64,000 nucleotides of DNA from Mycolicibacterium hassiacum DSM 44199 (GTDB lineage: Bacteria; Actinomycetota; Actinomycetes; Mycobacteriales; Mycobacteriaceae): assembly GCF_900603025.1 (NCBI RefSeq), contig NZ_LR026975.1:1860001-1924000 (forward strand), read 5' to 3'. Shown here in pieces: positions 31,876 through 36,350 of the stretch (the first letter of the stretch is position 1; every line of letters begins with the position of its first letter). The position numbers and the translations under genes are program-made. A model generated the notes under the pieces. It did not search any database and was not told the origin of the DNA. It was given only the letters and a program-made list of their open reading frames with translations.

Positions 31876-32367
31876 GTGCCGAAACTGAGCGCCGGACTGC
31901 TGCTCTACCGCATCGCCGACGGCGGGGTCGAGGTTCTCATCGGCCACCCCGGGGGACCGTTCTTCGCGCGCCGGGACGAGGGCGTGTGGTCGATTCCCAA
32001 GGGTGAGTACGAGCCCGGGGAGGACCCGTGGGCGGTGGCGCGCCGCGAATTCGAAGAGGAGGTCGGCAAGCCCGCCCCGGACGGCCCCCGCATCGAGCTG
32101 ACCCCGGTCAGACAGGCGTCGCGCAAGATCGTCACCGCGTACGCGGTGCAGGGCGATCTCGACCTGACCGGGACCCGCTCCAACACCTTCACCATGGAAT
32201 GGCCGAAGGGGTCCGGGCAGGTCCGGGAGTTCCCCGAGATCGACCGCGTGGCATGGTTTCCGGTCGACGTGGCGCGGTCGAAGCTGCTCAGGTACCAGGT
32301 GCCGCTGCTGGACGAACTGGCGGTCAGGCTCGCAGCCGCCGAACCGGACGGACCTCGATCGCGTTGA
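31876..32367 (+). CDS. Nudix hydrolase
   Basis: 163 aa. Cleaves nucleoside diphosphates linked to another moiety; the substrate is not predictable. Nudix box with GEYEPGED and REFEEEVGK fits Gx5Ex7REUxEExGU (U hydrophobic). N-terminal SAGLLLYRIADGGVEVLIGH and the WSIPKGEY segment match the DR2356/diadenosine-type group common in actinobacteria. GTG start set by the TAGGCT box. Convergent with the next gene, 3' ends overlapping by 44 bp. Confidence 0.9.
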   Translation: MPKLSAGLLLYRIADGGVEVLIGHPGGPFFARRDEGVWSIPKGEYEPGEDPWAVARREFEEEVGKPAPDGPRIELTPVRQASRKIVTAYAVQGDLDLTGTRSNTFTMEWPKGSGQVREFPEIDRVAWFPVDVARSKLLRYQVPLLDELAVRLAAAEPDGPRSR

Positions 32368-32785
32368 TGGTCAGCGCCCGACGGTGGATCCGCCAGCCGG
32401 CCGCCGCGGTGTACAGGTAGGTGTCGTCGTAGCGCAGATGCCACACGGTGTCGCCGATCCGCTCCCCGTCGACGGTCCAGTGGTGGGCGATGCAGGTGAC
32501 GTGCCCCACCGCGCGGTCGGCGGTGTCACCGGGGGCGTACACCTCGCCCACGATCGCGTGTTCGGTGCGGCGCACCGAACTCAGCGCCCCCATCGCCCGG
32601 CGCACCCCGTCCTGGCCGCAGTGGCGGCGGGTCGGCTCCAATGTGTCCGGGGGATCCGGGAGAACCAGTTCCGCTGTGGCGGTGAACAGTTCTGCCACCT
32701 CGTCGAAGCGGCGCTCGTCGACCGCCCAGGCGTAGCGGTGGACCAGGTCGGCGATCGCCAACCGGTCGGCCGGTGAAAGCCTCAC
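32324..32785 (-). CDS. SnoaL/NTF2-like protein
   Basis: 153 aa from GTG at 32785 in the GTGA overlap with the stop of the LLM oxidoreductase. NTF2-like fold: ADRLAIADLVHRYAWAVDER, FDEVAELFTATAEL, then HAIVGEVYAP and the conserved WHLRYDDTYLYTAAAGWRIH. Usually dehydrases or ligand-binding proteins with an Asp/His pair; candidates are visible but not decisive. Coupled to the F420-type enzyme, so probably in the same pathway. Confidence 0.85.
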   Translation of the reverse strand: MRLSPADRLAIADLVHRYAWAVDERRFDEVAELFTATAELVLPDPPDTLEPTRRHCGQDGVRRAMGALSSVRRTEHAIVGEVYAPGDTADRAVGHVTCIAHHWTVDGERIGDTVWHLRYDDTYLYTAAAGWRIHRRALTINAIEVRPVRRLRA

Positions 32786-33657
32786 GGCGCCAACCCCAGT
32801 CGCTCGGCGCACGCCGACAGCAGATCGCGGGCCTCGTCGAGGTCGGAGGTCGGCGGCATCGCCAGCACCAGCCGGTCCGCCCCGAGCGCGGTCAGCCGTT
32901 CGACGCGTTCCCGGTCCACACGCGAAACGTGGTGTCCCAGCGACAGTTCCAGATCATCGGGATCGCGCCCGGCCGCGTCCGCCGCCTCGCGCATCGTCTG
33001 CACCAGAGCCGCCAACTCGGCTCCGCCGACGCCCAGCGGCTGGAACCCGTCACCGTGCCGGCCGGCCCGCCGGGCAGCCGCCCTGCTGTGTCCGCCGATG
33101 TGAATAGGAATGCGCCGCAACGGTTTCGGATAACAGGTCGCGTGCTCGAAGGAGAAGAACTCACCACGGAACGTGGCGCCCTCGGGGCCGGCGTCCCACA
33201 GTGTCCGCAGCACCCGCAGCTGTTCGTCGGCACGTCGTCCGCGGGTGGCGAAATCGGCTCCGCACGCCTCGATCTCCTCCCGAAGCCAGCCGACGCCGAC
33301 GCACAACCGCAGCCGACCGCGACACAGCGCGTCCACGGTGGCGATCCGCTTGGCCAGCACCACCGGGTGGTGGTTCGGCAACACCAGCACCCCGGTGGCC
33401 AGCTGCAGCCGCCGGGTGTGGGCGGCCAGGAACGCCAGCAGGTCGAGGGGATCGGGCACCGGGCAATCCGGTGCGAGCTCGACGCGCCCGGACGCGGCGT
33501 AGGGATAACGGCTGCTGTACCGCGCGGCCAGCACGGTGTGTTCGACCACCACGATCGACTCGAACCCGCACGCCTCGAGGTGTTCGGCGAACGGCACCAT
33601 GAAGTCCGGGTCGGCGGTGACGCCCGCGCCGACCGGCGCGACGACGGCGAATCTCAT
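32782..33657 (-). CDS. F420-dependent LLM-class oxidoreductase
   Basis: 291-aa luciferase-like TIM barrel, F420-dependent group by wording: FAVVAPVGAGVTADPDFMVP, GFESIVVVEHTVL, RLQLATGVLVLPNHHPVVLA, then GRLRLCVGVGWLREE and RIPIHIGGHSRAAARRAGRH. Uses reduced F420 as hydride donor or acceptor on an unknown substrate. On the minus strand a TAGGAA near the start almost fits a leaderless -10. Followed by the NTF2-like gene with coupled translation. Confidence 0.92.
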   Translation of the reverse strand: MRFAVVAPVGAGVTADPDFMVPFAEHLEACGFESIVVVEHTVLAARYSSRYPYAASGRVELAPDCPVPDPLDLLAFLAAHTRRLQLATGVLVLPNHHPVVLAKRIATVDALCRGRLRLCVGVGWLREEIEACGADFATRGRRADEQLRVLRTLWDAGPEGATFRGEFFSFEHATCYPKPLRRIPIHIGGHSRAAARRAGRHGDGFQPLGVGGAELAALVQTMREAADAAGRDPDDLELSLGHHVSRVDRERVERLTALGADRLVLAMPPTSDLDEARDLLSACAERLGLAP

Positions 33658-33706: not shown

Positions 33707-34807
33707 TCACAGGTCGAGCGTCAGGTGGGCGCCGGCGGCCCGCGAGACGCAGATCAGCATGTGGTCCTCGCGTTCCGGGTCGGTGAGCAGGGTGTCGCGG
33801 TGGTCGACCGCACCGCTGAGCACCCGGGTGCGGCAGCTGCCGCAGAACCCCTGACGGCAGGAGTACGGGGCGGCGACACCGCTGCGGTTCAGCGCCGCGA
33901 GCAGGGTTTCGTCCGCGCCGACGTCGATCCGCCGGCCGGTCGAGGCCACCGTGACCGAGAAGGGCCGACCGTCGACGACGGGCGGGGCGGCGAACCGCTC
34001 GAAATGCAGCTCGACGTCGTCGCGTCCGGCCAGCCGGGTGCGAATGGCGGTGAGCAGGGCGGCCGGACCGCAGGCGTAGACCGCGGTGCCCGGCGGACAG
34101 GGCCCCAGCAACTCCTCGGCGCCGGGCAGGCCGCCGGCGTCATCGGTGCGGACGTGCACCCGGTCGCCGAACCGTTCCAGCTCGTCCAGGAACGGCAGGC
34201 TCGCGCGGCTGCGGCCGGTGTAGATCAACGACCAGTCGACGCCGAGCCGGTCGGCCAGCCGCACCATGGGCAGGATCGGGGTGATGCCGATGCCGCCGGC
34301 GATGAAGCGCAGCCGCTCGGCGGGCGAACCGTAGCCGGGCACGGTCAGCGGGAACGCGTTGCGCGGCCCGAGGGTGGTGACCGTGGCGCCGACCGGGAGC
34401 GCATCGTGCACCTCGACGGACCCGCCGCCGCCGTCCGGGATCCGCCGCACCGCGATGCGGTACGTGTCGGCGTCCGGATCGCCGCACAGCGAGTACTGCC
34501 GCACCCGGCCGCTGGGCAGCCGCACGTCGATGTGGGCGCCGGGATGCCAGCCCGGCAGCGGCCGGCCGTCGGCGGCGGCCAGCGTCAACGCGACGACATC
34601 CTCGTCGCGGGCCACGAGGCGGCGCTCGGTGACGTGCAGGGTGCGGGAGCGGTCCCGCGGCGCGGGCGGGGTGGCGCGGCGCAGCGCCGCGGCGGTGACG
34701 TCCATGCCGGTGATGACCACGGTGGCCAGACCGAGCATCAGGTCGCGGCGCCAGCGGCGCAGCGGATGCTTCGGCAGCTGCCGCAGCTGCTCACGCAGGA
34801 CGTTCAC
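33707..34807 (-). CDS. ferredoxin reductase of the phthalate/vanillate oxygenase type
   Basis: 366 aa from GTG at 34807, overlapping the upstream stop by 4 bp (GTGA). Domain order FAD/FMN - NAD - 2Fe-2S: RQYSLCG at 103-109, nucleotide loop GGIGITPILPM, and a plant-type cluster with Cys317, 322, 325 and 353 (CRQGFCGSCRTRV ... LICV). Moves electrons from NADH to an oxygenase. The translationally coupled partner is a ferritin-like protein, the probable electron acceptor. N-terminal helix (about 20-40) is hydrophobic and may touch the membrane. Confidence 0.92.
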   Translation of the reverse strand: MNVLREQLRQLPKHPLRRWRRDLMLGLATVVITGMDVTAAALRRATPPAPRDRSRTLHVTERRLVARDEDVVALTLAAADGRPLPGWHPGAHIDVRLPSGRVRQYSLCGDPDADTYRIAVRRIPDGGGGSVEVHDALPVGATVTTLGPRNAFPLTVPGYGSPAERLRFIAGGIGITPILPMVRLADRLGVDWSLIYTGRSRASLPFLDELERFGDRVHVRTDDAGGLPGAEELLGPCPPGTAVYACGPAALLTAIRTRLAGRDDVELHFERFAAPPVVDGRPFSVTVASTGRRIDVGADETLLAALNRSGVAAPYSCRQGFCGSCRTRVLSGAVDHRDTLLTDPEREDHMLICVSRAAGAHLTLDL

Positions 34808-35742
34808 AGGTGCGCGGCGCGGGCGGCCGGGGAGGTGGCCAGGTAGGCCACCGCCTGCGCGGTGGAGCCCATCTCCTCCGGGGAGAAGCCGGGCCGGAAG
34901 TACGACAGCGTGGCGGTGCCGAACACGGTGCGGAACTTCGGCAGCAGCCCCAGCCGGGAGTCGCGCATCCGCAACACCTGCATCCGCCACCAGCTCATGT
35001 CGATGCGGGGATCCTTCCTCAGCAGGAACCAGGTGCCGCGCTGGAAGAACATGTAGATCGCGGTCGCGGCGACCGACATCGCCCGGATCCGGTGCAGGTA
35101 GCTGTCATGGAAGTAGCGGGCGACGTCGTAGGCCACGCTGCGGTGCTCGACCTCCTCGCTGCCGTGCCAGCGGAACAGGTCGACCATCGTCGGATCGGCG
35201 CCGAAGTCGTCCCAGCGGGAGTTGAGCGCGAAATCGCCCAGCACGGCGGTGTAGTGCTCGATCGCGGCGATCATCCACAGCCGCTCGCGCAGGTTGCTCA
35301 GCCGCCGCTGCGGGTCGGTCGAGGTGGTGGGCGCGAGCACCTGCTCGAACACGTAGTCGACGAGTTCGAGGATCGGCGTCGGATCCACCCCGTTGACGAT
35401 GAGGAAGTCGCGCACCACCTGCTCGTGCGCGGTCGCGTGGGTGGACTCCTGCCCGATGAACCCGCGGATGTCCTCGGCCAACCGGGCATCGTGCACCAGC
35501 GGCAGCGCCTCGTTGAGGGTCTGCACGAACCAGCGCTCCCCGGCGGGCAGCACCAGGTTGAACAGGTTGATCATGGTGGAGGCCACCGGGTGGCCCGGTA
35601 TCCACTCCAGCGGGATGCCGGTCAGGTCGAATTGCACCTTGCGGGCCTGGATCTGCACCGGGCCCGGATCGACCTCGCGGGCGAAGCGGCGTGGTCGCAG
35701 CACGTCCCGCCGATCCGACACCCCAGCCGACGACCCTGTCAT
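34804..35742 (-). CDS. PF10118-type protein with ferritin-like diiron ligands
   Basis: 312 aa from ATG at 35742 with GAGGAGTTGCC upstream. Family databases call it a metal-dependent hydrolase. By eye the ligands repeat as E69...E99xxH102 and E162...E197xxH200, i.e. E-x30-ExxH and E-x35-ExxH, the ferritin-like diiron pattern. Its coupled partner is a 2Fe-2S flavin reductase, which a hydrolase would not need, so an O2-activating monooxygenase or desaturase is more likely. An 18-bp imperfect palindrome lies 38 bp upstream. Substrate unknown. Confidence 0.85.
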   Translation of the reverse strand: MTGSSAGVSDRRDVLRPRRFAREVDPGPVQIQARKVQFDLTGIPLEWIPGHPVASTMINLFNLVLPAGERWFVQTLNEALPLVHDARLAEDIRGFIGQESTHATAHEQVVRDFLIVNGVDPTPILELVDYVFEQVLAPTTSTDPQRRLSNLRERLWMIAAIEHYTAVLGDFALNSRWDDFGADPTMVDLFRWHGSEEVEHRSVAYDVARYFHDSYLHRIRAMSVAATAIYMFFQRGTWFLLRKDPRIDMSWWRMQVLRMRDSRLGLLPKFRTVFGTATLSYFRPGFSPEEMGSTAQAVAYLATSPAARAAHL

Positions 35743-35779
35743 GGCAACTCCTCGTGACGAAGGTGGCGCGTCGCCGAGT

Positions 35780-35833: not shown

Positions 35834-36244
35834 TCAGGCCGGAGGCGGCGCGGCCGGGCCCGGGGCACCCTGGATCGGCACCACCGGCGTGGGGGTGACG
35901 GTGGTGATCCCGTTGGCGCCCACCCGCGGGCCGCCGGACGGGCGCATCGCCTCGAGCATGTCGGCCGCCTTCTGGCTGCAGTCGAGCATCAGCAGGATGC
36001 GCCCCTCGGAGGTGATCTTCTGCTTGTCCACCAGGCACTCCGACTGTGGCAGCACACTGCCGAACGATCCGCCGAAGTAGGCCTTGTAGCCCTGGGCCTT
36101 GAGGATCTGCAGGGCCTTGGCGTACGGCTCACCGACCACGTTGAGGTAATTGGAGTGGGGCTCCGGCATCGCCACGCCCGCGCCGATCAGGGCGGCCGAT
36201 CCGGCGGCCACCAACGCGCCGCTGACCACAACGAGCTTCTTCAC
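35834..36244 (-). CDS. small exported mycobacterial protein
   Basis: 136 aa from GTG at 36244 with GAGGAGAGATCC. Hydrophobic N-terminus KKLVVVSGALVAAGSAALIG, then PHSNYLNVVGEPYAKALQIL and QGYKAYFGGSFGSVLPQSE, reminiscent of the 31310-31624 protein domain, and a Pro/Ala-rich tail. Two Cys (SECLVD, LDCSQK) may pair. Unknown function. Confidence 0.8.
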   Translation of the reverse strand: MKKLVVVSGALVAAGSAALIGAGVAMPEPHSNYLNVVGEPYAKALQILKAQGYKAYFGGSFGSVLPQSECLVDKQKITSEGRILLMLDCSQKAADMLEAMRPSGGPRVGANGITTVTPTPVVPIQGAPGPAAPPPA

Positions 36245-36350
36245 GGATCTCTCCTCTTTCGTGCGCGCTGCGAACATATCGCAGCGCTGCCTATTGCGAA
36301 ACCGGAGCGAAGGGCCCCAGCGTTACAGCGACCGTGTTGCCGCGACGGTG

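Follow-up and report, generated by a model that had tools for sequence, protein, structure and literature searches.

A PF10118 'metal-dependent hydrolase' of Mycolicibacterium hassiacum and its coupled reductase as a candidate two-component diiron oxygenase

Introduction

A 64,000-nucleotide stretch of the genome of Mycolicibacterium hassiacum DSM 44199 (contig NZ_LR026975.1, positions 1,860,001 to 1,924,000 of the forward strand; hereafter the window, numbered from its first letter) encodes a PF10118 family protein of 312 amino acids with the database name 'metal-dependent hydrolase', next to a reductase with flavin, nicotinamide adenine dinucleotide (NAD) and 2Fe-2S domains. The locus raises the question of what chemistry a protein of that name carries out with such a partner. 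An initial reading of the letters by themselves (the sequence-only reading) proposed that the hydrolase name is probably wrong and that the pair is a candidate two-component oxygenase. Our computational analysis, which covered predicted fold class, ligand conservation, reductase type, gene coupling and epoxide-hydrolase linkage in relatives, supports that reinterpretation through the conserved ligands, the predicted fold and the pairing with an oxygenase-type reductase. We put at roughly three in four the probability of a two-component non-haem diiron oxygenase, likely directed at lipids.

The window belongs to a 5.27-Mb single-contig genome whose nearest named protein matches are in Mycolicibacterium and Mycobacterium. 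PF10118 is a large family: of 7999 candidates scored, 2145 match it at E up to 0.001, and some member at that threshold is encoded in 57 of 60 genomes of the genus. In the accessible portion of one paper, PF10118 is mentioned in passing as a candidate protease (PMC8960859). No paper naming COG3687 or UCP07580 was found, and among the titles and abstract openings of open-licence literature none was found describing the family as an oxygenase.

Results

The locus consists of two overlapping open reading frames (ORFs) on the minus strand, just where the sequence-only reading had placed them. The PF10118 gene runs from 35742 to 34804 and is preceded by GAGGAG (35748..35753, minus strand), a probable ribosome-binding site 5 bases ahead of its ATG. 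The reductase gene, encoding 366 amino acids, runs from 34807 to 33707, its GTG start overlapping the TGA stop of the PF10118 gene within the bases GTGA (34804..34807, minus strand), an arrangement that suggests translational coupling.

By sequence, the 312-amino acid protein matches PF10118 ('Predicted metal-dependent hydrolase', 231 bits) and no other Pfam family at E up to 1, and no NCBIfam model reaches its cut-off. A single-sequence search gave no solved relative at E up to 10, and a search of solved structures with an 18-row profile gave only seven rows, the best at E 0.046, all apparently fortuitous hits on unrelated proteins. The window genome holds three further PF10118 genes or remnants (L005:5497-6429, L006:5825-6502 and L007:5963-6343), the first adjoining a TetR regulator and a divergent flavin monooxygenase and the last a fragment overlapping the end of another ORF.

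E69, E99xxH102, E162 and E197xxH200 had been proposed as the ligand set of a ferritin-like diiron enzyme, and their conservation, set beforehand as a test, is complete in all three sets of aligned PF10118 proteins (19/19, 79/79 and 89/89). The 79-row set was drawn from 80 named-genome loci, L063 and L066 being left out for a wrong start, and the 89-row alignment reaches out to 33 distant members that share just 21-26% identity with the window protein. Q98, H106, H193, E196 and E199 are likewise invariant in the 89-row alignment; the original list of six ligands overlooked the equally invariant H193. An AlphaFold2 model of the protein, of high confidence (predicted local distance difference test score, 94), is a ferritin-like bundle in which the predicted ligands sit about midway along the four core helices: E69 (codon 35536..35538) in helix 52-82, E99 and H102 (35437..35448, directly after the invariant Q98) in helix 86-115, E162 (35257..35259) in helix 144-174, and E197 and H200 in helix 184-211, all encoded on the minus strand. 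The last two belong to an AurF-like HxxEExxH motif (H193-x-x-E196-E197-x-x-H200, 35143..35166). As the spacing of H193, E197 and H200 matches that of what we take to be H223, E227 and H230 in AurF, a seven-ligand site resembling that of AurF, with H193 as the seventh, is possible.

Searches with the model point the same way. All 50 VIA-align matches listed are ferritin-like dimetal proteins, and the PDB matches listed include R2, R2lox, CmlI, VlmB, methane monooxygenase, stearoyl-ACP desaturase and their kin. R2lox structures fill the top two Foldseek rows, with weak E-values. No hydrolase appears among the 50 Foldseek and 50 VIA rows listed, though absence from such a list excludes nothing. 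Together, predicted fold and ligands support placing the protein in the ferritin-like diiron oxygenase/oxidase superfamily.

The partner is a reductase component of the phthalate-dioxygenase-reductase type, with flavin, NAD and C-terminal 2Fe-2S domains in that order. Its best solved relatives (PDB 6laa, 6kbh, 7ylr and 2pia) are two P450s with fused reductase domains, the ferredoxin entry 7ylr and phthalate dioxygenase reductase (2pia, E 3.4e-49). The ferredoxin domain (Fer2, 58.3 bits, residues 285-357, 33737..33955) contains cysteines 317, 322, 325 and 353, and the NAD-binding domain contains GGIGITP at residues 171-177 (34277..34297). Across 77 reductases, these cysteines, GGIGITP and the flavin motif RxYSLCG are each kept in 95% or more. 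In NCBIfam the best match is PaaE, at 87.2 bits, below the TIGR02160 cut-off of 420.8. A hydrophobic segment at residues 23-42 (34682..34741; highest 19-residue hydropathy, 1.74) may contact the membrane; a 19-residue window above 1.3 occurs within the first 75 residues in 29 of 76 reductases, with starts picked by script. The NAD and 2Fe-2S domains of the sequence-only reading were thus borne out. Its flavin adenine dinucleotide (FAD) is probably wrong, since the phthalate-dioxygenase-reductase family binds flavin mononucleotide (FMN), which is probably the flavin here as well.

The association of the two genes was followed in 60 genomes of the genus by joining hydrolase (104) and reductase (67) rows by position, nearly all of them the best rows of longer lists. 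PF10118 members fall into clades with these identities to the window protein: clade A, to which it belongs, at 66% or more; a sister clade B at 37-51%; and clade C at about 41%. Among the loci listed, a reductase lies directly downstream in 28 of 29 of clade A, the exception stopping at a contig edge; in clade B it is on the same strand and no more than 2 kb away in 35 of 37. Clade C (L043, L045 and L143-L154) lacks the phthalate-type reductase (0/12); instead, the next gene downstream in 11 of 12 loci encodes a ferredoxin-NAD reductase, of the aromatic-dioxygenase kind (AndAa/HcaD) as judged from one member scanned in NCBIfam. More distant PF10118 rows have no reductase, either in the 25 listed for the genus or in five loci read for about 5 kb on each side. 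A 50-residue fragment (G005:C369; 72% identity, thus clade A) beside which no reductase was found was counted in neither the 29 nor the 25.

In named genomes, the best 80 of 578 loci have the reductase directly downstream in 76 cases; the exceptions are L101, where the contig ends, and three Tsukamurella loci. Across 198 genomes of the phylum a match was found in 12, and outside the genus 5 of 7 loci at 38% identity or more have the reductase (L260, at 25%, was kept out of these counts). Two different kinds of oxygenase reductase therefore accompany the PF10118 family, though not in every clade. As to how often the family lies beside oxygenase-type reductases, such pairing is the rule in clades A and B and not for the Pfam family as a whole.

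Clade B adds a third enzyme, and the linkage of the PF10118/reductase pair to EphD-type epoxide hydrolases is what is new here. In clade-B loci of the genus, the gene between the PF10118 gene and the reductase encodes an alpha/beta hydrolase of about 300 amino acids or a 586-amino acid fusion with a short-chain dehydrogenase. The fusion from one relative passes NCBIfam NF004514 (733 bits against a cut-off of 455). One single form was scanned as well and aligns with the first half of the model at 312 bits, under the cut-off. Among 40 solved relatives of the single form, 30 are named epoxide hydrolases, including the best ten, and seven are dehalogenases. An EphD-type hydrolase is present in 24 of 35 clade-B loci of named genomes, in every case with HGxP and HDWG (the latter with the Asp nucleophile), and a short-chain dehydrogenase accompanies it in 15 of these. 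It also occurs in 27 of the 36 genus loci read out of 37 (one of the 27 only 31% identical) and in 3 of 7 loci of the phylum sample. The hydrolase gene lies upstream of the pair in, for example, Williamsia and Saccharopolyspora, between the two genes in mycobacteria, and downstream in Nocardia, Tsukamurella and Streptomyces; the same gene set in different orders argues for a functional link. As background, the window genome has nine matches to the epoxide-hydrolase domain, and its EphD-like gene (1600429-1602156) is unlinked to the PF10118/reductase pair.

No epoxide hydrolase lies near any of 45 clade-A loci, so the linkage does not follow wherever this reductase is present. A tree of 99 PF10118 members, 11 of them from clade A, was rooted only at the midpoint; in it clade A forms one clade within a group with support 99/99 that also contains Williamsia loci carrying the epoxide hydrolase and dehydrogenase. 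Given this grouping, epoxidation is a sensible guess for the window pair, although a tentative one, with hydroxylation, desaturation or halogenation as alternatives.

Other neighbours of clade B suggest an acyl-chain substrate. Just upstream of the PF10118 gene, 11 of 36 genus loci encode a 1083-amino acid protein with AMP-binding and NAD_binding_4 domains, fatty-acyl-AMP-ligase-like and thioester-reductase-like (for example L036:8436-11687, and ten others). A protein named SRPBCC-like by sequence appearance, not by family search, lies nearby in 13 of the 36, and a flavin monooxygenase in six, five of them at 79% or more. In L037, L044, L155, L156 and L166 the monooxygenase gene directly precedes the clade-B gene, and its best NCBIfam match, under the cut-off, is a Baeyer-Villiger enzyme; L155 and L156 have the epoxide hydrolase there and not the reductase.

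Around the window pair itself, an F420-dependent LLM oxidoreductase gene (TIGR03619) lies 49 bases beyond the reductase, together with a SnoaL-like gene that overlaps it (32324-33657, minus strand). Both were considered as partners and rejected: of 45 clade-A loci, which reach about 7 kb downstream, only 8 and 15, respectively, have them on the same strand, and in the relative L048 the reductase is followed by a protein-kinase gene. Ahead of the pair lies a gene for 147 amino acids (35834-36277), whose product begins with a hydrophobic stretch and matches no Pfam family. It is found upstream in 42 of 45 clade-A loci, and malQ in 34 of 45, but both look like shared gene order and not functional partners. 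Clustering of all neighbour ORFs was blurred by antisense ORFs.

Discussion

What, then, does the pair do? We infer the identity of the metal, the use of O2, the reaction and the substrate as follows. NADH would reduce the reductase flavin, probably FMN, and electrons would travel by way of the C-terminal 2Fe-2S domain to a diiron centre within the ferritin-like bundle, held by E69, E99, H102, E162, E197, H200 and perhaps H193. The reduced centre would then activate O2 for the oxidation of a hydrophobic substrate, with a fatty-acyl chain the likeliest; the PF10118 protein thus probably oxidises fatty molecules with O2. A two-component diiron oxygenase or oxidase of some kind is very likely. 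For clade B, alkene epoxidation is the somewhat favoured outcome, in which case the EphD-type hydrolase of the same cluster would open the epoxide.

A broader proposal, which we offer tentatively, is that PF10118 members in clades A and B are a hitherto unrecognised family of single-subunit diiron epoxidases, served by dedicated FMN/2Fe-2S reductases and supplying lipid epoxides to EphD-type hydrolases. In bacteria with mycolic acids, their role might extend to the epoxidation that leads to oxygenated mycolic acids or to kindred long-chain lipids. EphD acts on epoxymycolates in Mycolicibacterium smegmatis (PMC7998700), and in the accessible part of that paper no oxygenase partner was found. 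A 2025 review, likewise accessible in part, names MSMEG_1350, a methyltransferase and not an oxygenase, for epoxymycolate synthesis (PMC12845086). No epoxidase for epoxymycolates was found named in these portions of the two papers, which is weak evidence of absence. If the proteins are diiron oxygenases, a large family bears a name pointing to the wrong chemistry, an unstudied system that uses O2 is widespread in mycobacteria and their relatives, and EphD-type epoxide hydrolases, whose epoxide source was not found in the portions of the literature available, gain a direct genetic partner.

The most serious competitor, though we consider it unlikely, is a ferritin-like diiron enzyme with another outcome: a hydroxylase, a desaturase, an AurF-like N-oxygenase or a CylC-like halogenase. 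The HxxEExxH motif is near the HxxDExxH of AurF, Q98 before E99 reproduces the QExxH described for CylC-type halogenases in the accessible part of PMC12101540, and stearoyl-ACP desaturase, CmlI and VlmB are all in the fold list. The dehalogenases among the solved relatives of the clade-B hydrolase and the lack of an epoxide hydrolase near clade A also speak for it. However, hydroxylation or desaturation leaves unexplained why EphD-type hydrolases cluster with relatives of the pair in three gene orders. It is considerably less probable that the protein is an R2lox-like oxidase that reacts once with O2, or that it serves in storage or sensing, the link to the reductase having some other reason: R2lox does head the Foldseek list, but 76 of 80 loci keep the reductase adjacent, and clade C has a reductase of another family beside it in 11 of 12. 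A true metal-dependent hydrolase, for which only the inherited name speaks, is most improbable given the fold lists free of hydrolases, the lack of any NCBIfam model over its cut-off and the oxygenase-type reductases usually found beside the genes of clades A, B and C.

The proposed two-component diiron oxygenase shares features with several known systems. R2lox matches in fold, but a four-row R2lox set gave an hhalign probability of 4.2%, which is not significant, and the PF10118 protein has the additional H193. R2lox is not known to need a reductase. The AurF/CmlI arylamine N-oxygenases and the CylC/NocO halogenases are likewise ferritin-like diiron oxygenases. The third histidine of AurF, four residues before the glutamate of the last ExxH, is present in the PF10118 protein, where H193 before E197 is invariant. 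However, the protein has no match to PF11583, the AurF family; a 30-row AurF set gave a non-significant hhalign probability of 1.7%; and the regular reductase partner is a feature of the PF10118 pair. L215, L219, L225 and L228, from which no protein was obtained, were left out of these profile comparisons. AurF-type (PF11583) genes themselves are matched in 56 of 61 genus and family genomes, with three in the window genome, and one member, L183, shows HxxEExxH. Compared by motif description only, the QExxH plus HxxDExxH pattern of CylC halogenases (PMC12101540) is shared in its first part (Q98-E99), while the PF10118 HxxEExxH has E where CylC has D.

The likeness to PaaABCE lies in the architecture. 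This phenylacetyl-CoA epoxidase combines a ferritin-like diiron epoxidase with a flavin/2Fe-2S reductase, PaaE, the best NCBIfam match of the window reductase. Nevertheless, the window reductase is far under the PaaE cut-off (87 against 421 bits), and no Paa-type subunit is among the five window neighbours scanned. With phthalate dioxygenase reductase, the window reductase shares domain order, RxYSLCG, GGIGITP and CX4CX2CX27C. The usual partners of that reductase family are Rieske oxygenases or CYP116B P450s, and the window member differs by its ferritin-like partner and its hydrophobic N-terminal segment. EphD, an epoxide hydrolase fused to a short-chain dehydrogenase, has its counterpart in the fused clade-B neighbour that passes NF004514 in one relative.
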